A stretch of 64,000 nt of DNA, taken from Segatella copri (GTDB lineage Bacteria > Bacteroidota > Bacteroidia > Bacteroidales > Bacteroidaceae). Location of the stretch: positions 1 through 64,000 of the forward strand of contig NZ_VZCB01000084.1 of NCBI RefSeq assembly GCF_009494395.1, in the 5' to 3' direction. Every line of letters begins with the position of its first letter. The stretch's first letter is position 1. The notes under the pieces were generated by a model. That model searched no databases. It saw only the letters and a program-made list of their open reading frames with translations, and was not told the DNA's origin. The position numbers were made by a program, and so were the translations under genes. Shown in pieces: positions 27,335 to 46,257 of this stretch.

Positions 27335-27384
27335 AATTGTTTCCTTTTTTTTATATGAAGTTTAGAACTTAATTGGGATGAAGC

Positions 27385-30300: not shown

Positions 30301-30663
30301 GGTGACATCTCTCTTACGCATGGTGCCGTAACCCACAACAACGACCTCGTCAAGAGCTGCGTTGTCATCTTCGAGCGTAATGTTCCATGACTTTTGACCT
30401 CCTACTTTGATTTTTTGTGTTTTGCAGCCTATATAGCTGAATGTAAGAACCGTGTTAGGTTCTACGTTTTGGATAGTAAAGTTACCATCCAAGTCTGTGA
30501 TTCCACCAGCTTTACCGTTTTGGTCGGTAATGGTAACACCAATCATTGGCTCGCCATTAGAATCCTTCACTGTACCCTGTATTGTTTTCTGTTGTGCAAA
30601 CGCACCAATACAAACAGAGCCTAAAGCAAGTGCCATGCTGGCACGTTTAAGTTGTTGATACAT
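27385..30663 (-). CDS. SusC/RagA-family TonB-dependent transporter (pectin locus, pair 1)
   Basis: A 1092-residue outer-membrane barrel importing oligosaccharides with TonB energy. After the signal peptide (ends ...GAFAQQ) comes a carboxypeptidase-D-like domain (IQGTVKDSNGEPMIGVTI). Next are the TonB box region and plug (DEVVVVGYGTMRKRDVTGSI, VLKDASSTAIYGSRASAGVI) and then the beta barrel to the C-terminal Phe (FGVNLKF). No STN signalling domain is seen, so it is unlikely to feed an anti-sigma system. A regulatory near-palindrome lies upstream at 30854-30872. Confidence 0.95.
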   Translation of the reverse strand: MYQQLKRASMALALGSVCIGAFAQQKTIQGTVKDSNGEPMIGVTITDQNGKAGGITDLDGNFTIQNVEPNTVLTFSYIGCKTQKIKVGGQKSWNITLEDDNAALDEVVVVGYGTMRKRDVTGSIASINSDKIAARGTTNLAESLQGSVPGVNITQSGSRAGAGFNIQVRGQASINKQAQPLYVIDGVVCDNMDFLNPDDIDRIDVLKDASSTAIYGSRASAGVIMITTKGSKGADKAQKATISYDGYYGVKKLARMPELMGANEFMDYRFARYTTLDGKSYDGSSRKGVDADGHPHYIIKDTDLNSAFLTRKGGTSYKDSKLYELMMDPSFDGYDWKKMVTRTAAQQNHFISAAGATDKVNYRVGMGYQGEENVFKGNDYERFNLKGAMDAKLSKIFDAGFSVNLSMSSTEDVCTDGTYSPYVNAFYFNPFVSPTDADGNLIPNPGAKAAFGSDAQFTSTYNPLIDLYDGNYTNETKKYTMMGNLYLRANIMKGLKFTTTFSPNYSHKRQGIFYATGINEGNDVGSTYYQKNKTNFASVANTSRMDWTWDNQIDYNETFGDHNIGAMALFSLYKSNTEYQYEEAKGIANDHTTFHNQSSASGDKNLSSSYNESSLESFAFRANYSYKGRYMATATLRADGSSRFADGNRWGWFPSVAAAWRISDEAWMKQFSSWLDNTKLRVSYGVTGNNNVGDYVTIASATGPTYVTLGGTEVQGYHPNGLVNTALIWEKVKEFDLGLDLSFLKNRINVTADFYNRLSDGQIMSRSVPLETGEKTSTFNVGSVQNRGIELGLQFNIINKKDFSWSANVNFARNWNKIKELSNGKIDEVANNWFIGEPLNVLRDYTHTEVITDKGVTMHTMNGDKHYTLKEFYDKYGKKYKWYEGQVAVNDWNDDGKIDDSDKQIYGCTDPRWTGSLSTNIYFKGFDFSIMFYTKSGFWSRSYFHEKYMKYSDRGNAHMKLDYYIPAGAPIINHETGEITTATETHYGKYPYPNNSDTSMGGYFGDKGSAKGEGFQYQKTSFTKVKNITLGYTLPKNVVSKAGIRTLRVYMNILNPFCFTNYKGFDPEWASQSLQNGGPSSVTYQFGVNLKF

Positions 30664-30964
30664 AATGATGTTGTTTTATAGGTTATATTACTTTTAAATA
30701 TTTGTTTGGTCTTTTGAATTTACTGGCAATTGTTGTCGTGTATTATTCTTCTAGATCAATAGGAATCAGAGATTATTATTTAGTTTTTCTTTGATTTCGT
30801 CGTCAAAAGTAATAAAAATATCGTTATCTTGTATAGATTTTGATGGAAATTGTTACGTAAACGTTTTCGTAATTCTGTAGAATTACCAGATTTTTTAGTA
30901 CAGAAATAAGGGTACAGAAAACCCCGCAGGCAGAAAAATCATCTGCCTGCGGGGTAAATAGGAG
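30664..30964. other. Regulatory spacer upstream of susC1
   Basis: It contains a minus-strand -7 box (TACTTTTG, positions 30804-30811) without a -33 TTTG, and the operator at 30854-30872. An inverted repeat CCCCGCAGGCAGA/TCTGCCTGCGGGG (about 30923-30954) is probably the terminator of the GH43 gene. Confidence 0.7.
30854..30872. promoter_or_regulatory. Pectin-locus operator, site 1 (susC1)
   Basis: TACGTAAACGTTTTCGTAA, a near-palindrome around AACGTT. Its centre is 58.5 bp from the first base of the -7 box complement (30804), the same distance as at sites 2 and 4. This places it near -65, an activator position. Confidence 0.7.
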
Positions 30965-32755
30965 TTATTTTTCGAAATGTATCCAGTCGATGTCGAAGAA
31001 GGCTGCGTCGTTCTTCTTGGCTGTGCGGGTATTGAAGAAACCGAGTTTCGCTCCAATCCATTTGCCTTCGCGCACAGTAAACGGATTGCCTATCTTGATA
31101 AACTTCTTGCCATCCAGACTGTAGCTCCATTCTGCGATAGCCTGTATCTGGTTGGCGATGCCCTCGCTGTGTACTTTTACACGGAGCCATACATCCTGAG
31201 TAGCGATGCGGGATGAAGGAATATCATCTACCGCATACTTCACGGTGTAAGGTTTAGGCAGCTTGCTGGTCTTGATGGCTACCTGCTTTACCACCTTCTC
31301 TTCCTTTCCTTTGTCAGCTTTTTCACAAGTTACATATTGCAATACAACACCTTCTTCCTTGGTGTCTACAAACTTGAGGGCTGCATAATCCATTCCCTGC
31401 ATAATCATACCTGCGCTTTCGCCCAATACCTTATCATTCTCCTTGTAAGCCTCTGTGCGGTTAGGAATGAACTTAACCTTGGCTGTGGCTGTGAAATTCT
31501 CTGTAGGGAACTTCTGAAGCAGAAGGTTAGGCAGATCATAGAGGTTCTTTACATCTTCTGCCTGTTGCACACCATAGAGACGCAACTTGGAATTCTTGGC
31601 ATCGCAGAAGTACCAGTACTGACTGTAAGGACCATTCCACTGCCATTGCAGTCCGAGATCTAAGCTGTTGAAATCATCCGATTCCTTAGGCTGGAAGTTT
31701 CCGCTTGATGGCAAGTTTGGCTTCTTCCATTGCTGAACTGGATCTCCGCATCCGTCACCGTCCTTGTCGTCTCCGATAACCAGCCAGTCGTTTACCCATC
31801 TGGCTGGTTGCAGATGAACCACACGACCATAAGCATGCTTATCCTGGAAGTGGAGGAACCAGTCTTCGCCGTTCTGGGTATCTACCCATGCCCCCTGGTG
31901 AGGGCCGTTTACCTTCTTGTTCTTTCCCTGTGCCATACCCACATACTCCTCGTAAGGACCGTATGGATTCTTGGAACGCAGTTCTACCTGCCAGCCATAC
32001 TTCACTCCGCCCGCAGGGCTCATGATGTAATAGTAGCCGTTACGCTTATAGAACTTGGTACCTTCGATAGTAGGCTGGTCTTCATGCCCATCGTATACGA
32101 TGCGTGAAGGACCGATAACTTTGGTTCCGTCTGGTGACATCGGAGCTACGAAGAGCACCGATTTGATGCCGGCTCTAGAACCTGCGCAGCCATGCGACAG
32201 ATAAGCCTTTCCGTCTTCATCCCAAAGAGGGCAGCAGTCGATAAGACCTTTTCCCTTCATCACCCAAGTGATAGGTTCCCATGGACCACGAGGATCTTGT
32301 GTCTTGGTCATGAAGAGACCCTGATCAGGGTCGCCGCAATAGATGTAGAACCATCCGTCGTGATAGCGGATAGAGGGTGCCCATACGTAGTTGCCATGCT
32401 GAACTTTCTTGCGCCAGTCCAGGTCGGTACCCTGATACTCTGGCAGAACAGGATAGTCGTCGAGTAGGGCAGCGCCGATAATCTCCCAGTTTACCAGGTC
32501 GGTACTGTGCAGAATCTGCAGACCAGGGAAACACTGGAAGGAAGAGGAAGTCATATAGTAGTCATTGCCCACACGACATACATCTGGGTCAGAGTAGTCG
32601 GCGTCAATCACCGGATTGCGATACATTCCGTTCTTCAGGTTCGGATTCCATGTATGTGATGTTGCCTTCTGGGCGTTTACCCCCATCGCTGTGAGCGGAG
32701 AACTCAAAGCGATGGTTGCGAGAAGGCACAGGAGTGAATGATATTTTATTTTCAT
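30965..32755 (-). CDS. Glycoside hydrolase family 43 (arabinosidase/xylosidase type)
   Basis: A 596-residue secreted GH43 enzyme with a signal peptide. The five-bladed beta-propeller starts at MYRNPVIDADYSDPDVCRVG, which holds the catalytic-base Asp. The transition-state Asp (CCPLWDEDGKAYLSHG) and the catalytic acid Glu (EDQPTIEGTKFYKRNGYYY) follow. Residues about 360-596 form a C-terminal beta-sandwich typical of larger GH43 proteins. In this locus it probably trims arabinose, xylose or galactose side chains from pectin; exact specificity cannot be read. It follows the GH28 gene by 21 bp. Confidence 0.88.
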   Translation of the reverse strand: MKIKYHSLLCLLATIALSSPLTAMGVNAQKATSHTWNPNLKNGMYRNPVIDADYSDPDVCRVGNDYYMTSSSFQCFPGLQILHSTDLVNWEIIGAALLDDYPVLPEYQGTDLDWRKKVQHGNYVWAPSIRYHDGWFYIYCGDPDQGLFMTKTQDPRGPWEPITWVMKGKGLIDCCPLWDEDGKAYLSHGCAGSRAGIKSVLFVAPMSPDGTKVIGPSRIVYDGHEDQPTIEGTKFYKRNGYYYIMSPAGGVKYGWQVELRSKNPYGPYEEYVGMAQGKNKKVNGPHQGAWVDTQNGEDWFLHFQDKHAYGRVVHLQPARWVNDWLVIGDDKDGDGCGDPVQQWKKPNLPSSGNFQPKESDDFNSLDLGLQWQWNGPYSQYWYFCDAKNSKLRLYGVQQAEDVKNLYDLPNLLLQKFPTENFTATAKVKFIPNRTEAYKENDKVLGESAGMIMQGMDYAALKFVDTKEEGVVLQYVTCEKADKGKEEKVVKQVAIKTSKLPKPYTVKYAVDDIPSSRIATQDVWLRVKVHSEGIANQIQAIAEWSYSLDGKKFIKIGNPFTVREGKWIGAKLGFFNTRTAKKNDAAFFDIDWIHFEK

Positions 32756-32776
32756 TGTTACCGATGTTTAAATGAA

Positions 32777-34807
32777 TTATTTAGCTACGTATTTCTTGTT
32801 GTTGTAGATATAGATACCTTTTTTGAGACCTTGCAGGTCTTCTGCCTTGGCATTGAGCTTTACCATGCGACCGCTGAGGTCGTAAATGTTGTTATTGTTT
32901 ACCTTGGCGGTTAAAACAACATTACTGATACCGGAACTAGTTACCTTTACACCTTTCAGAGTGATAACCCAAGCGGCTTGTGCATTTTGTGGTGTGAAGA
33001 TAAGAGCGCCTGTAGCTGGAGTGTCTAGAGTAATATCAAACATTGTGCTCGTATCCGTTTGGGTTGTACGGCTAGGGAACACGTATTTATCTCTGGCAAA
33101 GGTTGTTCCGTTCAGTTCGCCGAGATAACAGGTCTTGTTGTCTTCATTGGCATATCCTGCAAATGTAGCCGATGTAATGGTAATATTCTCGGGCAGGTTG
33201 ATGGTAAACTGTACGCCCTTGCTGTACTTGATGGTATTGTTTTTAGCTGTAGCGTAACCTTTGCTGCTCTCTATGCTGCAACCGTTATTGAACGTCCATG
33301 GTGATGGATCACTTGAAGAAGAGGTGCAGGTTGATGCATCCAGAATATAGCTTACTTCTGTTGTCTCACCTGGGTTTGGAGTGGGATTTGGATTTGTACC
33401 AGCCCCTGTTGCATCACATTGGTCGTCTACCGTAGAATCGTACTGGCGAATCCAAAGTTTGCCTGACTGGCATGTAATCTTAGAATTATTCTTGAATACG
33501 AGATTATCTACGAAACGGATGTCGATACCTTTCTTGGCAGAAATCTGCACGTTGTCGAGTGTCACGTTCTTGATGTGGCTCTCTGGGCGGCCAATCAGGA
33601 AGATAGCATTGCCCTCGCAAACATCTGTAGTCTTCACGTTCTGAAGCAAGATGCCGTTGTAGGTTGGGGTAGTGCTATCTAAAGCTCTTGCATTAGCCTT
33701 GTCTACCGCAGGATCGCTGTTGTAGTTCTTGTCGTAGAAGCAGTCCATAGAGAAAGGATTCTTCACGTTGGTCATGGTGAAGTTGCTGAACTTCCAGTCT
33801 TCCTCTCCATTGCCGCGTAGTGTACCGTCGCTATTGATACCCGTCTTCATACGGATACCTGCTGTTGTTCCGTTCATGTCGATATAGTCGAACCATACAT
33901 GCTTGATGTTCTTGGTGTAGCTACCGATAGAAGCACCATGTCCTGTACCGAACTTGCAGTTCCAGACATGGATGTACTGTGCATCGTTGTCGCAAACCAC
34001 GTTATCATCACCTGTACTGATGTTGCAGTTATAGATATTCATGTGGTGTCCCCAGATAGAGATACCGTCTGTGTTATGAGAAGGCTGTTCTGTCTTGGTT
34101 TCTGAAGAAGGGTTATAGATGGTTACATCATGAACAGTACCATTGTTGGCTCCATTGCTGTTACTCAAGGTAATGTTGACACCCGGAGTATTCTGGACCT
34201 TGAGATTGCGAATCAGGAATCGGCTGCCTTTCTCGAAACGGATCATCGCTCCTGGATTGAAGGTCTCCTTGTTATCGCGAGCCTTCCACCAGCGGGTTCC
34301 CTGACCGTCAATAATAGAAGTTTCACCTTCACCCTCTATAACAATGTCGCTTTGGTTCTTGTTCTTGCAACCAATGAATACAGTCTTATTGTTTGGAGCC
34401 TTGCCGTATTCTACGAGCTTCAAGGTTGCTCCAGCGCAAAGGTGGAGTACTGTCTTAGACTTGATGCTGAGCACCTCTGTCTTGCTGGTCATCTGGTCTG
34501 TGCTACCAAACATCCAGGTACCCGCAGGTATTACGACCATACCGCCAGTTGAAGGAACTGCATCAAGCGCTTTCTGGATAGCCTTGGTATTATCTGCAGC
34601 AGATGTTGAGGCACCATAATCCTTGATGTTAAACGTATTTGCCGAAGTGATAGCAGGCAACTGAGGCAAGTTGACAGCAGTCCAACCCGCAGGGGTATTT
34701 TGTGCATTCTGCTCAGCAGTGATGCCGGCAAAAGTTTGTGCCTTAGCAAAGAAAGGCACAGCCATGAGTGCAGCGAGCACGATGGTTTTGATCATTTTTC
34801 TATTCAT
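32777..34807 (-). CDS. Polygalacturonase, glycoside hydrolase family 28
   Basis: A 676-residue secreted right-handed beta-helix enzyme hydrolysing galacturonan. All family motifs are present in order: NTDGISIWG, STGDDNVV, GTGHGASIGS and IRMKTG, giving the catalytic Asp residues, His and Arg-Lys. Residues about 485-600 form a beta-sandwich accessory module. The C-terminus (NNIYDLSGRMVKLNAK, then GLKKGIYIYNNKKYV) is a tail shared with other secreted proteins here. It is the first gene of a GH28-GH43 operon with operator site 4 upstream. Confidence 0.9.
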   Translation of the reverse strand: MNRKMIKTIVLAALMAVPFFAKAQTFAGITAEQNAQNTPAGWTAVNLPQLPAITSANTFNIKDYGASTSAADNTKAIQKALDAVPSTGGMVVIPAGTWMFGSTDQMTSKTEVLSIKSKTVLHLCAGATLKLVEYGKAPNNKTVFIGCKNKNQSDIVIEGEGETSIIDGQGTRWWKARDNKETFNPGAMIRFEKGSRFLIRNLKVQNTPGVNITLSNSNGANNGTVHDVTIYNPSSETKTEQPSHNTDGISIWGHHMNIYNCNISTGDDNVVCDNDAQYIHVWNCKFGTGHGASIGSYTKNIKHVWFDYIDMNGTTAGIRMKTGINSDGTLRGNGEEDWKFSNFTMTNVKNPFSMDCFYDKNYNSDPAVDKANARALDSTTPTYNGILLQNVKTTDVCEGNAIFLIGRPESHIKNVTLDNVQISAKKGIDIRFVDNLVFKNNSKITCQSGKLWIRQYDSTVDDQCDATGAGTNPNPTPNPGETTEVSYILDASTCTSSSSDPSPWTFNNGCSIESSKGYATAKNNTIKYSKGVQFTINLPENITITSATFAGYANEDNKTCYLGELNGTTFARDKYVFPSRTTQTDTSTMFDITLDTPATGALIFTPQNAQAAWVITLKGVKVTSSGISNVVLTAKVNNNNIYDLSGRMVKLNAKAEDLQGLKKGIYIYNNKKYVAK

Positions 34808-34881
34808 ATTTTTTAGGCTTAATTTCTTTTTGCAAAGTTACTACTTTTCTTTTGATTACTGATGCAATCAATGTATAAAAA

Positions 34882-34900
34882 ACACGAAAACGATTACGCA
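34882..34900. promoter_or_regulatory. Pectin-locus operator, site 4 (GH28-GH43 operon)
   Basis: On the minus strand TGCGTAATCGTTTTCGTGT, the same motif as the other sites but inverted. The centre is 58.5 bp from the -7 box TAACTTTG (complement at 34833-34840). No -33 TTTG is present. Confidence 0.68.
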
Positions 34901-35011
34901 ATTCATCTGCTATCATCGTTGTTTATAACAATAGTAGAAAATAAAAAGTGCAATGCTCCATATAAGCATTGCACTTTTCTTAAATTTATATGAGATGTTA
35001 ATCCTTGTGGA

Positions 35012-36700
35012 TTAATCCTCTACTACATACCAGCGTGGGTCACCAGCCTTTTCCTTCAAAGTTCCAGCCTTGATGGTAAAGTCGCCATTGGTTGGGTCCT
35101 TGAACAACTGGGTAGAGCTGAACTCTGTATCATTCACGCCCTTAATCACCTTGAAGAAGTCTGTTGTTCTGAAGCTGTTTACTACAGTTGCTGGAGTCTT
35201 GCTTCTGATGTTCTTGTTGGTAACTTCATCAGCACTCTTACCGAAGATACAGTTCTCAATAGTGAAGGTGCTTGGTCCGAATGTGTCAACGTTGAAGTCA
35301 ACGAAGAACTGGCCGTTACCATTACAGTTGTAGAATGTGCTGTTCTTGATGGTGATGTCCTGCATATCTGTCTTCTTGCTGAAGATAAATACCTTACCGG
35401 TTACACAGATACTGTTGAATGTACAGCCGTCAATCTCTACGTTGTCGAGATGACCTTTACCGCTGCCTGCATCAATGTGGATGAAACCATAACCTGCACA
35501 GAGTTTGGTGAAGATACTGTTCTTCAAGGTAAGTTTGCCGATAGACTTAGCATCACTTCCCTGGATACGGAAGAATGATGTTTTGATATTGCTAACCTCG
35601 CAATCCTCCAAAGTGAACTCGCTTATGGTACAAGCCTTGCTCTGGTTGATGAAGTAGCCAGCACCATTCTCTTCCAATTTCACGTTCTGGAACTTGATGA
35701 ATGCATGAGAACCTGCAACATCGAAGTTCTTGTCAAGATTGATGGTAGGCGCATCACCACCTGCCAAACCGAAGAATGTAACAGACATTCCGTCTGGGAT
35801 GGTTACGTTGGTCTTGCCACCATCTGAATCATTTGTGCCGTAGAGAGAAACTGTGGCACCAGCAGGAATACCGATAGTTGCACTATAGTTAGTCTCGTTT
35901 CCTGCTGCAGCTTTGGCCTGCTCTGCAATCTCTTCAATGAGAGTCTGGGAGATAACATTCACATCGCTTGGGAGCGTATACTTATAGTTTGCAGATGGCA
36001 TTGCTGCAGGTGTAGTGAATTGCAACTGACCACGTTTTACATCGTTATTATATAAGGTGGCGATGTAAGTGGTTGTTGGCTTCACGTTAGAGTAAGTAAC
36101 TTTACCAGCAGCAATTTGGTCTGCGGTAAGTTCATGCTTGCTCTTATCCTCTGGATCTGCTGCGTTGACAATTGTGATATGGGTAACTGTAGCACCTGGA
36201 GTCCAAGAGAAATTAACGTGGTCTTCAAAGAGGTCGGCTGTAGTAAGCTCGTTGAATAACTGTTCAGCCTTTGTCTTGAAAGATGAACCATCCTTGTAGT
36301 AAACCCATTTAGACTCGTTAGCAGTTGAAGACATAGCCTTTACACGCATGTAGTACTTGCTGTCGCCATCGAGACCTGAGAGAACTACTGGAGAAGAAGT
36401 CAAGGTCTTATCTTCTCCGAACTTGATGATGTTAGCATTCTCAACACCCTCGTAAAGAGAGTCCTTGCTTACCTCGAATACATAGTACTCTGGTGAAGGA
36501 ACTGCTTTTGATGTGAAGGCAGAGAATGTAACAGTAGCTGATGTTTCGGCAGTTTCAACGGTGATTTTGTCACCGTTGAGACCGAACAATCTTGACAGGC
36601 TGCCATCTACGTCCCAGTCATTGCCATCGGTACAAGAAGTAGCCGACAGAGTCAATGCCATCATAGATGCTGTGCCCAATATGTTTTTAATGCTCTTCAT
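35012..36700 (-). CDS. Surface lipoprotein with FN3-like and beta-helix domains (DUF4957/DUF5123 type)
   Basis: A 562-residue lipoprotein; the signal peptide ends at ATSC and is followed by TDGNDWD, an export-type acidic patch. Two fibronectin-III-like domains occupy residues about 45-235 (FKTKAEQLFNELTTADLFEDHV marks the second). A right-handed beta-helix resembling pectate-lyase folds fills the rest, but I see no catalytic Lys/Arg set. Proteins of this build sit in pectin loci and probably bind polysaccharide at the cell surface. I chose ATG 36700 since it begins the signal peptide. It is the last gene of the susC2-susD2 operon. Confidence 0.78.
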   Translation of the reverse strand: MKSIKNILGTASMMALTLSATSCTDGNDWDVDGSLSRLFGLNGDKITVETAETSATVTFSAFTSKAVPSPEYYVFEVSKDSLYEGVENANIIKFGEDKTLTSSPVVLSGLDGDSKYYMRVKAMSSTANESKWVYYKDGSSFKTKAEQLFNELTTADLFEDHVNFSWTPGATVTHITIVNAADPEDKSKHELTADQIAAGKVTYSNVKPTTTYIATLYNNDVKRGQLQFTTPAAMPSANYKYTLPSDVNVISQTLIEEIAEQAKAAAGNETNYSATIGIPAGATVSLYGTNDSDGGKTNVTIPDGMSVTFFGLAGGDAPTINLDKNFDVAGSHAFIKFQNVKLEENGAGYFINQSKACTISEFTLEDCEVSNIKTSFFRIQGSDAKSIGKLTLKNSIFTKLCAGYGFIHIDAGSGKGHLDNVEIDGCTFNSICVTGKVFIFSKKTDMQDITIKNSTFYNCNGNGQFFVDFNVDTFGPSTFTIENCIFGKSADEVTNKNIRSKTPATVVNSFRTTDFFKVIKGVNDTEFSSTQLFKDPTNGDFTIKAGTLKEKAGDPRWYVVED

Positions 36701-36728
36701 TTTCTTGTCTTTTTTGATTAAAGATGAA

Positions 36729-38672
36729 TTAGTCTGCATAACCATAAGAGTTGTGAATCTTACCGTTGGTTGCAGAGATGGTTGTAGAAGCGATTGGCAT
36801 GAGATAGCGGTTCTTCACTGCTACGTTATCGCCAACCAAACCGCTGCTGATAGATGGCAGGTTTACGTCAACCTGTGTATCTGAACCAGAATCCAACTTA
36901 GCTGCACCGAATGAGTCGATACTGCCTTCGTAGTCAGCAGACGTCTTTCCGTCAGGAATACCATACCATGTTACGCTAGAGAAGTCAATCTTGGTTTTCT
37001 TCTCATCCAGGTAGTTGAAGTAGATGGTCTTCTGGTAAGTACCGTCTGCAAGTTCTTCCAGGTAAGTCTGCTTGAACTCATTAATCTTTTCTGCGAGGAG
37101 GTTCCAACGAATCAGGTCGTACTTGCGGATACCTTCACCTGCAAACTCCCACATGTTCTCCTGAACGAGAGCATTGAAAAATGCGTCCTTGTCAGAAGCA
37201 ATGTTGTTGACGTATGCCTTAGCTTCATTCTTGTCAGCCTGGTTGAAGGCACGGGTGTGTACTGCTTCCAAAGCCTGGCGGGCTGTCATGCCGTTTGCTG
37301 AACCTTCGTAGTTGGCATCAGGGTTACCTGCCAACTCGTTCATGCACTCAGCATAGTAGAGCAATACCTGAGCGTAGCGCATCTTCACAGGATTGATACC
37401 TGTAGTGTGCTTAGCTGTTGCCTTCAGGTTGTTCTGCAACCAGGTGTTGTTCATCTTGCGGGCATCCCACTTACCTACATACATACCGAAAGGAGCATTC
37501 TTCAGCATGTTCTCAACAGTGTTGCTGCCATCCTGCTTGATTTCGAAGTTGGCGCAGGTGATGTCACGGCGTGTATCCTTCTTGTCGTAAGAATAGAGCA
37601 GAGGTGCAGTAACCTTCATCTTACCAGATGAGTTGCCATAGCCGTATTCTGTTGTAACACCATTCATGCGGACACCTACTGTGTAACCCAACTCTCCTGT
37701 TACGTTCTCACCGAAAGGAATCTCGAAGAGGTTCTCGTGGTAAGTCTTGTCGAGAGAGAGCTGGTTAATCAAGTACCACTCGTTCTCGAAAGATGGGTTG
37801 AGGTTGTGAGTATTGTCGTTGATGATAGCAGACCAGTGCTTCAGGGCACGCTCGTAGAGAGCCTTGCGGTCTGCTGCACCAGGGCGCTGTGTTGGATAAG
37901 TAGCATCGCTGTAAGATGCTGTCTCATATCCGTCCTTTTCCTTCTCGCGAATCACGTAGCCAGCACGTGTCATGGCAATCTGTGCCAGAAGAGCGTGAGC
38001 ATAACCCTTGGTTGTGCGCTCTGTGGTATAGCCTGTTGCCTGGTCTGCCCATGGCAAGTACTCTATAGCCTCATCCAGGTCGTTCATCAGGGAATCCATG
38101 ATTACGTCGCGGTCGGTCTTCTCCAGATAAGCGTTGCTCAAGTCTGACTTTGATGCCTCTCTCTTGAACGGAATATCACCAAAGATACGAACCAAGTCGA
38201 AGTAAACCATGGCACGGATGGTGAGCGCTTCGCCGAGGCTGCGTTCCATAGACTTCTGGTTAGCACCGCCAGCTGTTAATGTAGCGCTGCTGCGGATACC
38301 CTCAATAATCTGGTTGGCATCCTCGATGATACCATACTCAGCATCCCATACGCCGCTGATCTTGCTCCATCCCGGGTCCATGTTATAGTTCATGTTACCA
38401 CGTTCACTTGAGGTGTTGGTAGCATTGCTTCCAAGACCGTCAATCAATTCGCAGTCGCTGTTCAGGTTCCATACGATAGACAAGTCCTGTGCGTAGGTAC
38501 GGTCCTGTCCCATGCCACCATAGAGCTTATTGACGCGAAGATTGGTATAATAAGGTGAGGCGTAGGTATTCTCAGCAGTCATCTCTGATGGAGATGTCTG
38601 ATCCAGGAAGTCGGAGCATGAAGACAATCCTAATACGCCTGCCAATGCAAATGCATATAATATCTTGTTCAT
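36729..38672 (-). CDS. SusD/RagB-family outer-membrane lipoprotein (pectin locus, pair 2)
   Basis: A 647-residue glycan-binding lipoprotein partnering SusC2. The signal peptide starts at MNKILYAFALAGVLGL and ends at the lipobox LSSC, with SDFLDQ after it. SusD-fold signatures include LGEALTIRAMVYFDLVRIFGD and the C-terminal FAGEGIRKYDLIRWN. I chose ATG 38672 over an upstream in-frame ATG because it begins the signal peptide. It starts 19 bp after the susC2 stop codon, so the pair is cotranscribed. Confidence 0.93.
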   Translation of the reverse strand: MNKILYAFALAGVLGLSSCSDFLDQTSPSEMTAENTYASPYYTNLRVNKLYGGMGQDRTYAQDLSIVWNLNSDCELIDGLGSNATNTSSERGNMNYNMDPGWSKISGVWDAEYGIIEDANQIIEGIRSSATLTAGGANQKSMERSLGEALTIRAMVYFDLVRIFGDIPFKREASKSDLSNAYLEKTDRDVIMDSLMNDLDEAIEYLPWADQATGYTTERTTKGYAHALLAQIAMTRAGYVIREKEKDGYETASYSDATYPTQRPGAADRKALYERALKHWSAIINDNTHNLNPSFENEWYLINQLSLDKTYHENLFEIPFGENVTGELGYTVGVRMNGVTTEYGYGNSSGKMKVTAPLLYSYDKKDTRRDITCANFEIKQDGSNTVENMLKNAPFGMYVGKWDARKMNNTWLQNNLKATAKHTTGINPVKMRYAQVLLYYAECMNELAGNPDANYEGSANGMTARQALEAVHTRAFNQADKNEAKAYVNNIASDKDAFFNALVQENMWEFAGEGIRKYDLIRWNLLAEKINEFKQTYLEELADGTYQKTIYFNYLDEKKTKIDFSSVTWYGIPDGKTSADYEGSIDSFGAAKLDSGSDTQVDVNLPSISSGLVGDNVAVKNRYLMPIASTTISATNGKIHNSYGYAD

Positions 38673-38691
38673 TGTTATTATCTTATAAATT

Positions 38692-41600
38692 TTAGAATGT
38701 AACATTAATACCACCTACGAAGGTGCGGCTCTTTGGATAAGCTGCATAGTCGATACCTGGGGTCATTGGGTTCTTCTTTGAACTTGTATCAACCTCTGGA
38801 TCGTAGCCTGAGTAGTTGGTGAAGCAAAGCAGGTTGTAACCTGTGAAGTAGATGCGTACGTTCTGCATGTAGCACTTGTTTACCCACTTCTTTGGCAAGG
38901 TGTAACCCACTGTTACGTTCTGAAGGCGCAGGAATGATGCATCTTCTACAGCATAGCTGATGAGCTGCATGGTTGATACGCCTGCTGGATTGTAGATATT
39001 GGCGTTGGCATTGATCTCGTTCAAGCGGTTCATCACGTTCTCTACACCACCATATTCTGCGATGAGGCTAGCTGATGGGCGACCGATGTTGTTACCGTTG
39101 GCTGGGTCAATCCAGGTATAGCGGTTGCCTACGTTGAAATCATCTACAAGGTTATAGTTCTTGGCTGAACCAGCGTAGAATGAGTTGGCAAGCTTGGTAC
39201 CGTTCACAAGCTTATTGCCCAATGAGTAGTTGAAGAACAGGTTGAAGTCGAGGTTACCAACGTGACCGTCAAAGCCGAAACCACCTGTTGTGGTAGGTAC
39301 GGTGTTGCCCAGACGCTGCTTCACTGCATCACCATTCTCGTCAACTTCTACCTTGGCAACGCCTGGATAGAGGTTACCGCCGAAGAGCTTGTAGCTGTTG
39401 TCCTTTACGCCTTCTGCCAGTGCCCAAGTGCCGTTGGCTTTCAATACCAAGTCACCCTTGCCTGTTGCGGCATCATACACGGTGTAGAAACCGTTGCTCT
39501 TGTAGCCCCAAAGCTCACCGAGGCGACCGCCTTGCTCTACGCGGAAGTCTTCGTACTTGGCAATGGTAGAACCGCTCCAATTAGAACTCTGCCATGGGTT
39601 CTCCATGTTCAACTCGTCAATCTTGTTCTTGTTGTAAGATACGTTGAAGTTGAAGTTCAAACCAAAGTTCTTCTTGTCTACGATTACAGCATTGAGCGCC
39701 AACTCAACACCCTTGTTAGAGGTCTTACCGAAATTCTGGAACTGGTAAGAGTAACCTGTGTTGGCAGGAACGATACTTTGCATCAAGAGGTCCTTGGTGG
39801 TATTCCAGTAGAAGTCCAATGTACCGCTGATGCGACCGTTGAAGAAACCGTAGTCGATACCGAAGTTACGGGTCACTGTGGTTTCCCACTTCAAGTCTGG
39901 ATTATAGAGATATTTACCATGCTCAAGCATAGAAGCTCTGTTCTCATCGAAGAATGGAGCCTTTGATGTGTTGTCTGCCATTGAGTAGGTGGTAGTCAGC
40001 AAACCAGAGTTGATACGGTTGTTACCTGCTGTACCGAAGCTCAGACGAGCCTTCAGGTTAGAAAGCCAGCTGGAAGCACCCTTCAGGAATTCCTCGTCAG
40101 ACATACGCCAAGCCAAGGCTGCTGATGGGAAGAGACCCCAACGGTTGTCCTTGCCAAACTTGCTGGAACCATCGGCACGAAGTGTAAATGTTGCTAAATA
40201 CTTGTCGTTGAGCGTATAGTTGATACGGCCGAAGTAAGAGAGAATGTTCTCCTCAGCCTTGATGTTACCCTCGTTAGGAAGCGCTGTACCTGCTGCTGTG
40301 TTAGCCAATACCTCGTTCAATGTGAATGAAGTTGGGAAGGCTACAGAAGTATTGGTACGGGTTACGTCCTGGCTGCTGCTCCATTCCTGACCAACCAATA
40401 CATTGATGTGGTCACGACCATGGAAAAGCTTCTTGTTGTCGTAAGTCAATGTATTTGCATTACGCCAGTTCTTGTTCTCCAAACGAACGAACTGTACCTG
40501 TGGCTGACCGTTGTAACCATACTTAGAGTTGGTGGTTGCATTAGAACCCCAAACCTGGTCGGTATTGTTGTACTTCCAACCATAGCCGAACTCAGAGCGG
40601 AATGTGATGTTCTTGAATGGCTTCCAGTTCAAGCCTACGTTGTAGTTCTGCTGGAAACGCTCCTGATACTTATAGGTATCGGTGATACGCTCTGTTGGGT
40701 TACGGCGTGTTGATGTGCTGTTCTCCTCATCATCGTCTGATGTGCCGGAGAGAGGCTCTACCGGGTTCCATCTTACGGTGTTGGCAACAACTGAGTTTGC
40801 TGCACTCGACTCGTTGGTATCTGCACCACCATTCAAACCGTCCAGTTTTGTGAAAGCCATACGGCCATTGAAGTCGAGAGACAACCACTTGTTCAAGTTG
40901 GCATTGATCTTGGCGTTTACATTGTTCTTGGCATAGCCAGAACCCTGCATGATGCTCTTCTCGTCGTTGTGAGAAAAACCGATGTTGTATTTCAGGTCCT
41001 TGGTACCACCGCTTACGTTCACGTTATACTGCTTCTGGTTACCTGTACGGCCGAATACCTCATCCTGATAGTCACGTCCTTCGATAGACTTCCAGATGTC
41101 GAGGTCGTTGTAGTTACCATAGTCAGTGCTACCCAACTCATACTGATAGTATGCATAGTCGTATGGAGACATAGTCTTTACCAACTTAGATACTTTCTTG
41201 TAGCCGAGAGAAGCATTGAAGTTCACCTGGGTCTTGCCCTCAGAACCGCTCTTGGTTGTAACGATGATAACACCATTGGCACCACGGGCACCATAGATGG
41301 CTGTAGAGGAAGCATCCTTCAACACGTCGATGCTCTGGATTTCGCTAGGAGCGATGTCGCTGATAGAGCTTACAGGGAAACCGTCAACGATGTAGAGTGG
41401 AGAGTTGTCCTGAGAAAGGGAACCGCCACCACGCACGCGAATCTTCACGTCAGCATCTGGTGAACCTTCGGTGGTGGTGATGTTCACACCCGCCATCTTA
41501 CCGGTCATCGCCTCGCTTACGTTAGATACAGGAATATTGGCAATCTGCTTGTCGCTGATAGAAGATACAGAACCAGTGAGGTCCTTCTTTCTAACTGTAC

Positions 41601-41940
41601 CATAGCCGATTACAACCACGTCGTTGAGGGTGGTGTTGTCATCCTCGAGCTTGACGTCGATAGTTTCTTTACCTGCAACGCTTACTTCCTTTGCTTTCAT
41701 ACCGATGTATGAAATCTTCAGTTTCTTGCTCTTGCCTTTTAAGTTTACTGTGAAGTTACCGTCAATGTCGGTCACGCCACCATTGCCAGCTACACCTACC
41801 TCCATGACAGATGCGCCGATGATTGGCTCGCCCGTATTGTCAGTAACAACTCCTTTTACCGTTTGCGCAGAGACGCTTGTTACCATGAACATGAGCGCAC
41901 CTGCAAGCGCAATCTTCTTTCTGTTATAATTACCAGACAT
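38692..41940 (-). CDS. SusC/RagA-family TonB-dependent transporter (pectin locus, pair 2)
   Basis: A 1082-residue outer-membrane importer. Signal peptide (ends SVSAQ), carboxypeptidase-like domain (VKGVVTDNTGEPIIGASV), plug (NDVVVIGYGTVRKKDLTGSV, VLKDASSTAIYGARGANGVI) and barrel follow in order, ending GGINVTF. It is clearly diverged from SusC1, so the two pairs probably take different pectin fragments. It heads the operon susC2-susD2-beta-helix lipoprotein with operator site 2 upstream. Confidence 0.95.
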   Translation of the reverse strand: MSGNYNRKKIALAGALMFMVTSVSAQTVKGVVTDNTGEPIIGASVMEVGVAGNGGVTDIDGNFTVNLKGKSKKLKISYIGMKAKEVSVAGKETIDVKLEDDNTTLNDVVVIGYGTVRKKDLTGSVSSISDKQIANIPVSNVSEAMTGKMAGVNITTTEGSPDADVKIRVRGGGSLSQDNSPLYIVDGFPVSSISDIAPSEIQSIDVLKDASSTAIYGARGANGVIIVTTKSGSEGKTQVNFNASLGYKKVSKLVKTMSPYDYAYYQYELGSTDYGNYNDLDIWKSIEGRDYQDEVFGRTGNQKQYNVNVSGGTKDLKYNIGFSHNDEKSIMQGSGYAKNNVNAKINANLNKWLSLDFNGRMAFTKLDGLNGGADTNESSAANSVVANTVRWNPVEPLSGTSDDDEENSTSTRRNPTERITDTYKYQERFQQNYNVGLNWKPFKNITFRSEFGYGWKYNNTDQVWGSNATTNSKYGYNGQPQVQFVRLENKNWRNANTLTYDNKKLFHGRDHINVLVGQEWSSSQDVTRTNTSVAFPTSFTLNEVLANTAAGTALPNEGNIKAEENILSYFGRINYTLNDKYLATFTLRADGSSKFGKDNRWGLFPSAALAWRMSDEEFLKGASSWLSNLKARLSFGTAGNNRINSGLLTTTYSMADNTSKAPFFDENRASMLEHGKYLYNPDLKWETTVTRNFGIDYGFFNGRISGTLDFYWNTTKDLLMQSIVPANTGYSYQFQNFGKTSNKGVELALNAVIVDKKNFGLNFNFNVSYNKNKIDELNMENPWQSSNWSGSTIAKYEDFRVEQGGRLGELWGYKSNGFYTVYDAATGKGDLVLKANGTWALAEGVKDNSYKLFGGNLYPGVAKVEVDENGDAVKQRLGNTVPTTTGGFGFDGHVGNLDFNLFFNYSLGNKLVNGTKLANSFYAGSAKNYNLVDDFNVGNRYTWIDPANGNNIGRPSASLIAEYGGVENVMNRLNEINANANIYNPAGVSTMQLISYAVEDASFLRLQNVTVGYTLPKKWVNKCYMQNVRIYFTGYNLLCFTNYSGYDPEVDTSSKKNPMTPGIDYAAYPKSRTFVGGINVTF

Positions 41941-42127
41941 ACACTTATAGGTTAGATTATACTATTATAAAATTTGTTTTCTTACTCTCGATTTGTACGT
42001 TTAAGTAGACAAAAACCGCTGTGCAAAAAATACGCATTTATAGCGCAATTTTATGCACAGTCTGTTTTTTTCGTTTGCAAATATAGGTAAAAAAAATGAA
42101 TTACGTTAAAGATTCACGTGAAAATAA

Positions 42128-42146
42128 TACGTAAACGTTTGCTTAA
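42128..42146. promoter_or_regulatory. Pectin-locus operator, site 2 (susC2 operon)
   Basis: TACGTAAACGTTTGCTTAA, with its centre 58.5 bp from the -7 box TATATTTG (complement at 42078-42085), identical to the spacing at susC1. No -33 TTTG is present. Confidence 0.68.
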
Positions 42147-42419
42147 AGATTGTTTTTAACATAAAAACCCCTATAGTTAACTGCTCAGTACCCCTATGAG
42201 CATAACTTCTTTAACTTCTGAAAGAGGCTCATTCCACTTATTGCCTAACTATGGCACAATATTGCCCTCAACTGGGGCAACTTTTTGCCATTGCCGGGCA
42301 CAAAATGATGCGTCGGGAGAAAAATTTCGGGATGTCTACCTTCGCCATTCGAAATATGCTTTCCGGCTGCAGGAAGCGTGGTTTTGTTCGTGAAAAACCT
42401 TACTCTCAATTTTACCCTT

Positions 42420-42485
42420 CACCCTTCACCTTTTCGTCTGAAACCCCGATAAACACTGGGGGCATGAGAGGTGAAGGGTGTTTTT
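42420..42485 (+). terminator. Hairpin with T run in the susC2-CE8 spacer
   Basis: An 11-bp perfect stem (CACCCTTCACC/GGTGAAGGGTG) with an inner CCCC/GGGG pairing is followed by five T. No gene is seen before it on the plus strand. Confidence 0.55.
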
Positions 42486-42616
42486 GAATGTAGCTTTCTA
42501 TCCACCGCCGCCTGAATTTTCTATCCAGTCTTCTCAACTCTGGGTGCTAGAAAACTTTTATGTCTCACAATACGGGGTTAGCCGACGGCTTACACTGAGT
42601 TGTTACGAAACGGAAA

Positions 42617-42651
42617 AGAGAGTGTGTCATAAGTTCATGACGCACTCTCTT
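42617..42651. terminator. Strong 15-bp hairpin in the susC2-CE8 spacer
   Basis: AAGAGAGTGTGTCAT pairs with ATGACGCACTCTCTT (one G-T pair) around a 6-nt loop. It may terminate CE8 transcription on the minus strand or be a remnant of a mobile element end. Confidence 0.5.
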
Positions 42652-42722
42652 CTTGTTGGTATATTACTGAAATGTTGTTGGAACAGATAGTATAAGTTTC
42701 TAGGATAGTTAGTATCTTCGGC

Positions 42723-42805
42723 CGCACAACAGCTGTTGTGCGCTTGCATATCAGCTGATATGCGCTTGCACAACAGGTGATGTGCATGTGGTAGTCAACT
42801 GTTGT
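42723..42805. repeat. Tandem 22-bp units that are each palindromic
   Basis: A perfect 20-bp palindrome (42723-42742, CGCACAACAG then its complement) is followed by a perfect 18-bp palindrome (42746-42763, GCATATCAG then its complement). Two less perfect 22-bp units follow. The units share TGTG or TATG ends and CGCTTGCA joints but differ in the palindrome interior. Confidence 0.8.
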
Positions 42806-42871
42806 GCGCTAACTGTTTTCTAGACTTATGACCGCCTCTCCTTGAACAAAAACAGAGGCGGTCCCTTTCCT

Positions 42872-45800
42872 TTATTTCATGATAACTTTTTCTGTCTTCT
42901 TGCTACCATCAGCAAGAGTCTTCACAACGATGTTGATTCCTTTCTGAAGACTGTTTTGCTGAGTACCGCTTATTGAGAAGATGGCTGTGCTTACGGTGGC
43001 TGCTTCATCTGCAGCAGCAATGTTCTTGATGCCGGTAACAACAGAAGTCATCTTACCGAAACCACCCATCTCGTTGGCAGCACGAACGCTCCATGTACCT
43101 GTAGCACCGGCAATGCCGAGTGACTTCTCTGCTGTCATGGCGAAGAACTTGCCGTCTTTCAATACGATGTACATCTGTGCATCACCTTCCCAAGCGAGCT
43201 TGCCATTGCTTTCTGTTGCTGCAGTTGCAGACTTCTGAGCTGCGAGGTCGGCTGGCTTCCAGTTGTTGAATACCTTGTCGAGGCTGAACTCGGCTGCCTT
43301 CTCGGCTGTGATGATGGTGTTGTACTCGCTAACTTCCTTATCCTTTGTAAACTTCACGATGTTCTCGGCAGGAGAAATCACCTTGCCGTTCTCATCAACA
43401 GTGTTGTACTCGAAGAAGTTCTTGGCAACCACGTTCATACCACCTGTTGTCCAGCGGGTTGAAGCAATGTTGGCTGCTGCGTTCTTGTCGAGGATGGTGT
43501 TGAGGAAAGCACACTTGGCAGTTCCACCCCAAGAGCGACCGAAGGTGAAGCTGTCAGTAGCTGAACCTACAATCTTACATCCGTCAAATACATAACCATA
43601 ATCACTTCCGTCTGTGTAAGGAGCTGTGATGTATGAACCCTTACCTGGTTCCAATGTCAAGGTACACTTGTTGAAGAATACATCGCCACCACCGCAGATG
43701 AAGTCTACGATTCCGTGGATGTCTGAATTCTCGAAGTAGTACTGACCCTTATTATTGTTGCTATAGTAAGTATCCTGGTATGATAGCATCTTCACGTTCT
43801 TGCAGATGGTCTGGGTACCCTTATCCTGGAGGCAGACGGCACGGCCGGTGCTCTTGTCGAATGGATAAGCATTCTTCAGGGTGAGATCCTGCATGTAGAG
43901 ACCTGTGCTGGTATTGAACAATGTTGCAGTAACACCGATTCCCTCTACCTCAGGCTTGTTCACGATGATGGTGTTGTCCATGCTCTCGCCGATGATAGAG
44001 ATGTTGTTGCCACTGATAGTAGTGAGACACTTGTCTCCGAGATCGTATGTGCCGTTAGGCAAGAAGATGAATGTACGTGTTGCGTTGGCTGCTGCATTGT
44101 TGCCGTTAGCAATTTCGAGAGCTGTCATAAAGCCCTGTGCGTCGCCCGCCTTTACTTCCATCCAGTTACCGTTCTGAGCGAAGGCTGGATTGGTCATGTT
44201 GACGATGCTGAGGCTGTGGATATATGTATCTCCTCCTTCGAAGGTGAGGGTATATTCACCACTCTCGGTTGATTCGTTCTGGAGAATACCGAAGTTGCCG
44301 TCCTTTGTTGCCTTTGCATCAATAGAACTTACTTCATTTCCCTTAGGATCGAGGAGGGTAATCTTACCAGTCTTAGAATATTGGCAGAGGTTCATCTTGA
44401 TGTAACCCTTACCGCCCATCAATACCTTAATCTTGCCGTTTGATTCGAATACCCAACCGTGTGTAGTATCGTGCCACTTGCCGTTTTCTACAGAAATAGC
44501 TTCATGGTCGTTGATGTCGAAACCTTCCTTGGTGAAGTTGTAGTCGTAACGGGCTGTTGCATTGGCAGTCTCTATATCAGTTACGAGTGCATAGAGTGCT
44601 GCATCTGAACTAATGACAGAAGAAGTGGTGAACTTCTTCTCATCCTGCTTCAAGGAAGAAGACCATCCGCGGAACTTCTTGCCGTCAGCTACAGTTACCT
44701 TGTTTTCTACTCCTTCTACGAAAGCTTCAATTTCTGCATCCTGTTCTACTGCCTGTGTGCCGATAACAGTCTTGCCGTCTATATTATAATAGGTGAGGGT
44801 GAAATCTGGCTTGAAGCCTACGGTCAACTCATAGGTTACTTCGTCACCGTTAGCCTCTACTACGATAGTTGCTACAGTCTTCAGGTTGGCACCTTCGCCT
44901 GTAGTGGTGTAAGTAGTGCTCTTGATGGTTCCGTTGGCTGTAACGAGATCGGTAAGAGGGTTAGACTCTGTGATGAGCTTAGCCTTCTTGGAAACAAGAA
45001 TAGTTGCGATTTGCTTGCCTTCTGCATTCTCCTCGAAGAGGTCGGCTGCCTGGTAAGCCTTGCCGTTTACTGCGAAACTGCCCAGCATTGGAGTCTTGCT
45101 CATATCTACATTACCATAGATTGCGAGGTCAGTAACGTAAGCGTTCTGACCGAGAGCAAAGTTCTCGAACTTAATCTGACAGTTGGTACGGTTTACGTCG
45201 AGTGTCAGATCCTCACCACTTGCTTTTACGATAGATACGTTGTGGATTACTACCCAGTCATCATCGCCGTCGCCCTTTACGGATACTTTGATACCACGAT
45301 TGCCGCCGGTAGCAGCCTGGTGCAGTGTTATCTTGGTGATGCTTGCCAATGGAGAGGTTACTGCGCTTGGTTCAGCTGTTGTGTATTGGTTTGGATACTT
45401 AGCTGTAATCATATATCCAGTACGGTCAGGGAACTTAGCCTGATTTCCCGTAGGGTCAACACCCACTCCGTTGAATGTAAAGGTAAATGCCTCCTTGCTG
45501 TAAAGGGTTTTGAGATTTACCTTTACATCTGTAGCTTTTGTGTTGTCTATTTTCTCCCAGTTGGTGAAGTCGGTAGTGTAGAGTGCCTTCTCCTGAATGG
45601 CACTAACCTGAACCACCTTTACATTATAAAGGTAGCAACCACCAGTTGCCACAACCTCAACATAGCCCTTAGCCACTTCTGCTGTAGTAGCTTTGTGGTC
45701 AGTTGCGTCTTCTGTTGCAGCTATACCACCGATGGTATAGTTGTGGTAGCCATGGCAACTGGTTACAGTGACGATGTCCTTTGCTGACTTGACAGGTACC

Positions 45801-46060
45801 TGAAGGATGGTTCCGGTGTTAAACTGTGCGTCGGTGGTTCTTCCTTTCAGTTTGCCATTGGTTGCATCTACATGTAGTAGAATGCCGTCAACTGTAGAGG
45901 TGATGTCTCCTACTTTACCTTGAAAATTTGTTGCTGTGTTGATTCCTTCTGGCACGTTGTGCTGGAAGTCCCAAATAGCAGTTACGTCTTGCGCCTTTGC
46001 AATAAAAGCAAAGACAAGCAACAGGCTTAGAAGCCCGAATCTGAGTAGATTTTTTTTCAT
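42872..46060 (-). CDS. Pectin methylesterase (CE8) with large N-terminal modules
   Basis: A 1062-residue secreted protein. The CE8 beta-helix occupies roughly residues 650-960: FIFLPNGTYDLGDKCLT, LSYQDTYYSN (oxyanion Gln and catalytic Asp), GIVDFICGGGDVFFN (catalytic Asp) and FGRSWGG (substrate Arg) are present. The first 640 residues contain beta-sandwich modules and repeats that probably bind carbohydrate. The C-terminus (FSISGTQQNSLQKGINIVV, then KTEKVIMK) resembles the tail on other secreted proteins here. It removes methyl esters so GH28 and PL1 can act. Operator site 3 lies upstream. Confidence 0.88.
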   Translation of the reverse strand: MKKNLLRFGLLSLLLVFAFIAKAQDVTAIWDFQHNVPEGINTATNFQGKVGDITSTVDGILLHVDATNGKLKGRTTDAQFNTGTILQVPVKSAKDIVTVTSCHGYHNYTIGGIAATEDATDHKATTAEVAKGYVEVVATGGCYLYNVKVVQVSAIQEKALYTTDFTNWEKIDNTKATDVKVNLKTLYSKEAFTFTFNGVGVDPTGNQAKFPDRTGYMITAKYPNQYTTAEPSAVTSPLASITKITLHQAATGGNRGIKVSVKGDGDDDWVVIHNVSIVKASGEDLTLDVNRTNCQIKFENFALGQNAYVTDLAIYGNVDMSKTPMLGSFAVNGKAYQAADLFEENAEGKQIATILVSKKAKLITESNPLTDLVTANGTIKSTTYTTTGEGANLKTVATIVVEANGDEVTYELTVGFKPDFTLTYYNIDGKTVIGTQAVEQDAEIEAFVEGVENKVTVADGKKFRGWSSSLKQDEKKFTTSSVISSDAALYALVTDIETANATARYDYNFTKEGFDINDHEAISVENGKWHDTTHGWVFESNGKIKVLMGGKGYIKMNLCQYSKTGKITLLDPKGNEVSSIDAKATKDGNFGILQNESTESGEYTLTFEGGDTYIHSLSIVNMTNPAFAQNGNWMEVKAGDAQGFMTALEIANGNNAAANATRTFIFLPNGTYDLGDKCLTTISGNNISIIGESMDNTIIVNKPEVEGIGVTATLFNTSTGLYMQDLTLKNAYPFDKSTGRAVCLQDKGTQTICKNVKMLSYQDTYYSNNNKGQYYFENSDIHGIVDFICGGGDVFFNKCTLTLEPGKGSYITAPYTDGSDYGYVFDGCKIVGSATDSFTFGRSWGGTAKCAFLNTILDKNAAANIASTRWTTGGMNVVAKNFFEYNTVDENGKVISPAENIVKFTKDKEVSEYNTIITAEKAAEFSLDKVFNNWKPADLAAQKSATAATESNGKLAWEGDAQMYIVLKDGKFFAMTAEKSLGIAGATGTWSVRAANEMGGFGKMTSVVTGIKNIAAADEAATVSTAIFSISGTQQNSLQKGINIVVKTLADGSKKTEKVIMK

Positions 46061-46180
46061 TTTGTTTGCCTTTAGGTAATTATATAATATTTATACTTTC
46101 GTTTTTTAAGTTTATAGATGCAAAAATACACTTATTATTTTTATTTTCAGTTCTTTTTCTTCTTAATTTCTTGTAAAAGC

Positions 46181-46199
46181 TACGTAATCGTTTTCGTTG
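46181..46199. promoter_or_regulatory. Pectin-locus operator, site 3, between two divergent promoters
   Basis: TACGTAATCGTTTTCGTTG. The centre is 68.5 bp from the CE8 -7 box (TATTTTTG, complement at 46121-46128) and 67.5 bp from the plus-strand -7 box at 46250-46257. The distance to CE8 is exactly 10 bp, one helical turn, more than at the other sites. Confidence 0.65.
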
Positions 46200-46227: not shown

Positions 46228-46257
46228 TTGTGTTCTCAAAATGATTTGTTAATTTTG
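46228..46257 (+). promoter_or_regulatory. Promoter of the divergent small secreted protein
   Basis: TTG at 46228-46230, 19 nt, then TAATTTTG at 46250-46257; the gene starts at 46337 after an 80-nt leader. Confidence 0.6.

Follow-up and report, generated by a model that had tools for sequence, protein, structure and literature searches.

A phase-locked LacI-type operator before pectin, uronate and other carbon genes of Prevotella sensu lato, with a candidate regulator and a divergent small RNA

We describe a palindromic operator found four times in a 64,000-nucleotide stretch of Segatella copri DNA (contig NZ_VZCB01000084.1, positions 1 to 64,000; hereafter the window), each time before a promoter of pectin-degradation genes. 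Across 60 genomes of the genus (Prevotella sensu lato), the source genome included, the same operator sits at two locked distances from the −7 box, co-occurs with one lacI gene, and lies between that gene and a divergent small RNA (sRNA). The feature is real, regulatory and genus-wide, and it extends beyond the pectin locus; it is of a known kind (the LacI-family regulons) in a new arrangement. We infer, as the likely reading, that one CcpA-like protein of the LacI/GalR family, encoded on contig C111 of the source genome, binds these operators, activates the promoters by a class I-like contact and represses its own gene.

An earlier, sequence-only reading had placed near-palindromes before susC1, GH28-GH43, the susC2 operon and CE8, and all four are where it put them (Table 1). 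Each is an even palindrome with its axis between C and G, the form that LacI proteins as a rule recognize (PMC4052901). The first T of TAnnTTTG lies 51, 51, 51 and 61 bp from the axis, so that all four are in register. The spacings of 58.5 and 68.5 bp given earlier describe the same geometry, measured toward the far end of the −7 box, and the label "inverted" once attached to site 34882 is unneeded for a palindrome this nearly symmetric. At all four promoters TTTG is missing 18–21 bp upstream of the −7 box. A fifth promoter (46250–46257, +) had been overlooked; it makes the CE8 operator bidirectional and precedes gene 46337, whose homologues in genomes G045 (60 bp) and G022 (50 bp) likewise carry the operator. 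In G022 a single site lies between the CE8 gene (50 bp) and the relative of gene 46337 (50 bp).

We built a scoring matrix from 24 operators upstream of lacI in other genomes, drawn from 29 loci of which five gave no match to the search expression. Run over the window, this matrix ranks the four sites first to fourth (24.7, 23.5, 16.8 and 16.2 bits), the next match scoring 6.4, and in 300 first-order Markov sequences matches scoring as high as the weakest site averaged 0.02 per 64 kb. The expression that selected the training sites was shaped like the motif, which makes the test independent of the window sites and not of the motif idea. Only this matrix is free of the window sites; that used below to scan uxaC, lacI promoters and named genomes was made from the four of them.

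The search for the motif at a set spacing to TAnnTTTG, suggested by the sequence-only reading, was widened to the 60 genus genomes with the pattern CGTTTDCGT, then 33–63 bases, then TAnnTTTG. It found 168 matches, and spacings from 150 of these 168 are locked: 51 bp (n = 38), 60 bp (n = 38), 50 bp (n = 16) and 61 bp (n = 13), which together make 105 of the 150 matches listed. Among the same matches, 64 fall at 49–52 bp and 58 at 59–62 bp, against 28 spread over 23 other spacings (mean 1.2). If the −7 box is taken as centred at −7, the operator centres would lie at about −62 and −72, one helical turn apart, and such locking at helical-turn intervals upstream of a promoter is what a class I-type activator would show. 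A reversed-pattern control was poorly matched (99 matches by hand sum, against 168), and the inference is drawn instead from how the spacings are distributed and from a comparison with other genera of the family, which show no clear spacing peak (25 of 70 matches in the eight peak spacings, 18 expected). Separately, 20 of 72 matches to the CGTTTDCGT half-site lie 17/18 bp away from the −7 box. This second cluster, which occurs whether or not a genome carries the lacI gene, is perhaps due to another regulator or a promoter element.

Sites and lacI gene occur together. An orthologue of at least 64% identity is present in 36 of the 60 genomes. Peak-spaced matches average 3.7 per genome with lacI (n = 30) and 0.52 without (n = 21; Mann-Whitney p ~1e-8), whereas off-peak matches do not differ (0.40 against 0.76); these means cover 51 fully listed genomes and leave out nine with unlisted matches. 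Before uxaC, the gene for glucuronate isomerase, a phase-locked site is present in 26 of 29 regions from genomes with lacI and in 2 of 16 from genomes without (Fisher p 4e-7). These 45 regions represent 43 genomes; a uxaC match was present in 46, of which three were left out because the gene was partial. The criterion was loose, allowing one mismatch in the −7 box; G018, with a half-site at 51 bp that fails the full-site score, was counted as lacking the site, and G059, with a core that has no central CG, as having it. On a uxaC tree of 29 rows, which excludes G018, the absence of lacI takes four changes, at least three of them forced by well-supported branches. CE8 was also tried as a tracer. 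Its 27 loci come from other genomes and the source genome, with the frame start inside the fetched DNA in 17, and a peak-spaced site stands within 300 bp before the gene in two of these 17 (the source genome and L050 in G022); a third, in G016 at 62 bp, was seen in a longer stretch (L176). Most CE8 homologues have no site, and CE8 was dropped in favour of uxaC.

The sequence-only reading had found no candidate regulator in the window. There is indeed no hybrid sensor or LacI protein among the 36 proteins scanned, but strictly the window is not empty of candidates, as it holds a gene for an extracytoplasmic function (ECF)-type sigma factor (51812–52408). The source genome has four LacI genes, all on contigs other than that of the window, and the candidate is the one on C111. 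It has an N-terminal LacI helix-turn-helix domain (PF00356, 55.3 bits, cut-off 27). The models for CytR, RbsR and CcpA span nearly all of its 338 residues, every one scoring below its equivalog cut-off; against the NCBIfam equivalogs it reaches 179.9 bits for CcpA (cut-off 442.35) and 132.9 bits for Cra/FruR (cut-off 385). Its structure matches are CcpA and PurR, and CcpA is its nearest solved relative by sequence. The gene has a LuxR-type gene and a hybrid histidine kinase as neighbours, with GH31 and GH2 beyond them, and does not lie beside uronate catabolism genes. The operator precedes lacI itself at 26 of 30 loci, and at 24 of these its distance to the −7 box is 24/25 bp. In 23 of these 24 promoters a −33 TTTG is present, inside the operator at that spacing; binding should thus occlude the −33 box. 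From named genomes, a set sharing species with the genus sample, 80 loci were fetched; 78 had sufficient upstream DNA, and 64 of these have the operator before lacI. Judged from these sequences, the C111 LacI protein probably binds the operators.

The same operator faces an sRNA on the other side. A divergent −7 box at 49–51 or 60–61 bp accompanies the conserved core block of the sRNA at 23 of 23 lacI loci and is found at none of three without the block (the 26 loci with an operator, judged by eye); in the named genomes it is present at 40 of 41 loci with the block and 4 of 37 without. The core is single-copy in 29 of the 60 genomes, comprising 28 of the 36 with a lacI orthologue and 1 of the 24 without. 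Two genomes, G041 and G049, have the sRNA and lacI on different contigs, and there the sRNA still has its operator at 51 bp. An alignment of 28 of the 29 sRNAs (G012 left out) shows 31 consecutive invariant core positions, and 10 of 12 pairs of the terminator stem have compensatory changes on both sides. Thus the sRNA has what is expected of a trans-acting one: its own promoter, a conserved core and an intrinsic terminator. Outside the genus it is all but absent (1 of 141 genomes of other genera, against 7 of 10 within). When one locus was searched against Rfam, no match reached the gathering score, nearby matches being far below it. A review reports that the S. copri sRNA SrcF affects genes of polysaccharide utilization loci (PULs) and colonisation, and the lacI-divergent sRNA may be SrcF. 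Complementarity of about 11 nt to the lacI 5′ leader, noticed by eye in the source genome, was not seen in the L092 leader and is not claimed.

To survey the target genes, 60 stretches were fetched from among the 122 peak-spaced matches listed, with most uxaC and lacI loci left out. First downstream frames, chosen mechanically, comprise 58 distinct frames in 35 sequence clusters. Pectin- or uronate-related frames number 19 of these 58 and include SusC, GH28, GH28-GH88, pectate lyases, Pel9A-like proteins, CE8, relatives of gene 46337 and a kdgK-like kinase, on which the models for 2-keto-3-deoxygluconate (KDG) kinase score below cut-off. Others encode nagB (Glucosamine_iso), GH97, glutamate dehydrogenase (gdhA) and malic enzyme. 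The scope proposed earlier, the pectin locus, was therefore too narrow: its genes are among the targets, together with nagB, GH97, gdhA, malic enzyme and the sRNA. The first frames of L204 and L209 follow copies of the sRNA and are unlikely to be targets, and the matches in L200 and L211, which have no full palindrome, are probably due to chance. At uxaC a peak-spaced site is present at 21 of 30 loci, 19 at 60/61 bp and two at 51 bp; the source genome has it at 60 bp with a weaker second site at 24 bp, and also has a GH97 site at 60 bp (C24). Genome G045 has a related but rearranged pectin locus with operators at GH28 (50 bp), susC1 (50 bp), susC2 (51 bp) and the homologue of gene 46337 (60 bp). 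The order of the susD1-susC1 and GH43-GH28 blocks (25625–34807) is swapped relative to G045 (L171), and each promoter retains its operator.

Table 1. Operators, −7 boxes and genes discussed in the text. Coordinates are those of the window, except in the last two rows, which refer to contig C111 of the source genome.
Feature	Position	Strand	Remarks
Operator 1 TTACGTAAACGTTTTCGTAA	30853..30872	.	susC1 promoter; 24.7 bits, rank 1
susC1 −7 box TACTTTTG	30804..30811	-	51 bp to operator 1 centre
susC1, TonB-dependent transporter	27385..30663	-	Pfam
susD1	25625..27334	-	Pfam
Operator 2 ACACGAAAACGATTACGCAA	34882..34901	.	GH28-GH43 promoter; 16.2 bits, rank 4
GH28-GH43 −7 box TAACTTTG	34833..34840	-	51 bp to operator 2 centre
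GH28, polygalacturonase family	32777..34807	-	Pfam; presumably one operon with GH43, given the short gap
GH43	30965..32755	-	Pfam
Operator 3 ATACGTAAACGTTTGCTTAA	42127..42146	.	susC2 promoter; 23.5 bits, rank 2
susC2 −7 box TATATTTG	42078..42085	-	51 bp to operator 3 centre
susC2	38692..41940	-	Pfam
susD2	36729..38714	-	Pfam
DUF5123/DUF4957 beta-helix protein	35012..36745	-	Pfam; last in the susC2 operon, presumed a member from its overlap
Operator 4 CTACGTAATCGTTTTCGTTG	46180..46199	.	bidirectional: CE8 (-), gene 46337 (+); 16.8 bits, rank 3
CE8 −7 box TATTTTTG	46121..46128	-	61 bp to operator 4 centre
CE8 pectinesterase	42872..46060	-	Pfam
Fifth promoter, −7 box TAATTTTG	46250..46257	+	before gene 46337-47035; 60 bp to operator 4 centre
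232-aa protein, signal-peptide-like start	46337..47035	+	without Pfam family; scan of window proteins
Candidate LacI, 338 aa	G000:C111:8739-9755		outside the window
sRNA core GAGTAATGAATAGTTGATAATAAGTTAGTTAG, then terminator hairpin	G000:C111:8562-8593 and ~90 bp around	-	divergent from lacI; operator at 51 bp (L091, L328)

Published expression data bear on the window genes. We take the debranching enzyme of the window to be GH133. The neighbours reported for the pectin locus of S. copri DSM18205 (GH133, GT4 and GH57) then agree with those in the window, so that the two, as compared by description, are probably the same kind of locus. In that strain, homogalacturonan and rhamnogalacturonan I induce GH28, GH43_10 and, from predicted PUL6 (CE8 among its genes), the second SusC/D set; a PL1, GH28-GH105, uronate isomerase, 2-keto-3-deoxy-6-phosphogluconate (KDPG) aldolase and a sugar kinase are induced as well (PMC11784079). 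The first SusC/D pair responds only weakly, and there is no induction of the LacI gene at the uronate locus (PMC11784079). The fit of expression to the operator sites is good but not perfect.

We propose that LacI, bound with its centre about 62 or 72 bp upstream of the start of transcription and on the same face of the helix, would touch RNA polymerase, and that this contact would switch on the pectin PUL genes, uxaC and other carbon genes. At its own promoter the protein would cover the −33 box, giving autorepression, and the operator there would also drive the divergent sRNA. The effector would be a sugar or a carbon-status signal. The fixed distance argues for polymerase contact of either sign, since LacI-family proteins can also repress in this way. 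Of the single activator postulated earlier, one LacI-type protein acting from two helical positions is strongly supported, because of the genus-wide spacing peaks and the co-occurrence with one lacI gene; as to sign, it is probably an activator. A wider claim, on which we are evenly divided, is that the protein is a global carbon regulator throughout the genus, which activates from two phased positions, represses itself and controls a single-copy sRNA through a bidirectional operator, with pectin and uronate genes as the largest visible target group.

Several observations weigh against this proposal. The susC1 operator is the strongest in the window, yet in S. copri the induction of the first SusC/D pair is weak, and GH28-GH105-like genes are induced there, whereas their window counterpart has no site. 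Three genomes (G004, G019 and G053) have lacI and no uxaC site. Conversely, G042, almost identical to the source genome at uxaC, retains a uxaC site without a lacI orthologue; a recent loss of lacI would leave the site in place, but the case may also be taken as a counter-example. Many of the matches behind the spacing peaks are orthologous promoters in related genomes, and the counts are not independent. The absence of −33 TTTG, true of the four window promoters, does not hold for the whole regulated class: 40 of 59 regulated promoters lack it and 19 of 59 have it. Activator dependence is thus not general.

The main rival to activation has the same LacI as a contact repressor, which would hold polymerase inactive from about −62/−72 until an inducer releases it on pectin. 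Most LacI proteins repress, GalR at −60.5 does so through polymerase contact, and phase-locking indicates contact rather than its sign. Nor does expression separate the two: the induction of pectin genes on pectin in S. copri (PMC11784079) is equally compatible with derepression. We nevertheless consider repression unlikely. The missing −33 TTTG at the four window promoters suits activator dependence, with the exceptions elsewhere given above, two positions one turn apart before many unrelated promoters resemble class I activation, and the window has no further site of at least 14 bits as a partner for a local loop.

Should the pectin sites be bound by another LacI paralogue or palindrome-binding protein, the co-occurrence with lacI would reflect lineage bias. 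We regard this as improbable. Operators of lacI from other species predict the window sites, and the losses of lacI are scattered over the tree, although the uxaC site of G042 stands without an orthologue. Two of the other LacI proteins among the four in the source genome were ruled out as binders: the C27 type is present in only 3 of 60 genomes, and no AANCGNTT core lies in the gap of about 400 bp that separates the C46 LacI gene from the kdgK-like gene. A further point for a different binder is that TGCAAACGTTTGCA sites, probably those of another LacI, lie at 51 or 60 bp in four of six cases (47, 47, 51, 51, 51 and 60 bp), too few to assign to the same regulon. The idea that the operator is a local pectin switch, with the remaining genus signal due to chance or to different regulators, could appeal to the 19 of 58 sampled frames that are pectin or uronate related; we give it hardly any credence, since sites of this kind, at the same spacings, precede nagB, GH97, gdhA, lacI and the sRNA as well, each of them in several genomes.

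CRP activates in class I fashion from −61.5/−71.5, a helical phasing similar to that of the C111 LacI operators, from which it differs in protein family, sigma and promoter type. The C111 LacI protein shares with CcpA of Firmicutes, whose co-repressor is HPr-Ser-P, and with Cra/FruR of enterobacteria the LacI fold, a CG-centred palindrome and a broad carbon regulon. It differs from both in its occurrence, as seen here, in one Bacteroidota genus, its two locked positions before Bacteroidota-type −7 boxes, its link to an sRNA and the equivalog scores it misses. Cra both represses and activates (PMC4052901). KdgR, UxaR and UxuR of Bacteroides likewise belong to the LacI family and control the catabolism of galacturonate and glucuronate; what is reported of them concerns monosaccharide pathways that include few extracellular genes (PMC3878776), whereas here a LacI from outside the uronate locus is implicated. 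The hybrid two-component systems of Bacteroides pectin PULs also control operons of pectin SusC/D and enzymes, and act at direct-repeat sites (PMC3878776), in contrast to the LacI-type palindrome here. As to the RNA, SrcF and the lacI-linked sRNA are both S. copri sRNAs, and GibS and FopS of B. thetaiotaomicron likewise have a conserved single-stranded 5′ part, a terminator hairpin and a role in carbohydrate metabolism (PMC7366714, PMC11697453). FopS has 14 paralogues, whereas the lacI-linked sRNA has one copy per genome, and the parts of those two papers cited here mention no LacI-type operator, which the lacI-linked sRNA has. Our searches of the open-access literature brought up no such regulator-sRNA circuit for Bacteroidota, subscription papers having been mostly outside their scope.

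The pectin genes of the window, with no hybrid sensor encoded nearby among the scanned proteins, now have a named candidate regulator, an operator, a geometry and a wider regulon, and the candidate is tied to an ultra-conserved small RNA. The arrangement offers a clean natural system for LacI-family action on Bacteroidota promoters, the consensus of which is unlike that of the classical models. If true, it would be a CcpA/Cra-like circuit with an RNA arm.

Further features were seen along the way. The C46 LacI gene (L014:8797-10258) has a KDG-kinase-like gene, a KDPG aldolase gene and a galactarate-dehydratase-like gene as neighbours; it is divergent from the kdgK-like gene, and the gap between them holds TGTGCGAATACACA-like repeats, which are probably its own operator. 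On C26 (L017:3600-4900) lies an array of GTAAACNGTTTCGTAG-like units that resemble LacI half-sites. Nine small secreted proteins, mostly of about 120 residues, are encoded behind a phase-locked operator (L173:418-771, L179, L183, L190, L191, L196, L199, L207 and L215); that of L173, the one scanned of the nine, has no Pfam match. Promoters of the 60-bp class at nagB (L208, L188, L193, L203, L212 and L174) and GH97 (L170) often have, by eye, an FNR/CRP-like element of the TTGATTTAYRTCAA type between the operator and the −7 box. Finally, the ECF-type sigma factor gene of the window is divergent from a GH28-GH88 gene (48991–51564), which has no operator here, whereas its homologues in four other genomes have one (L201, L202, L219 and L227).

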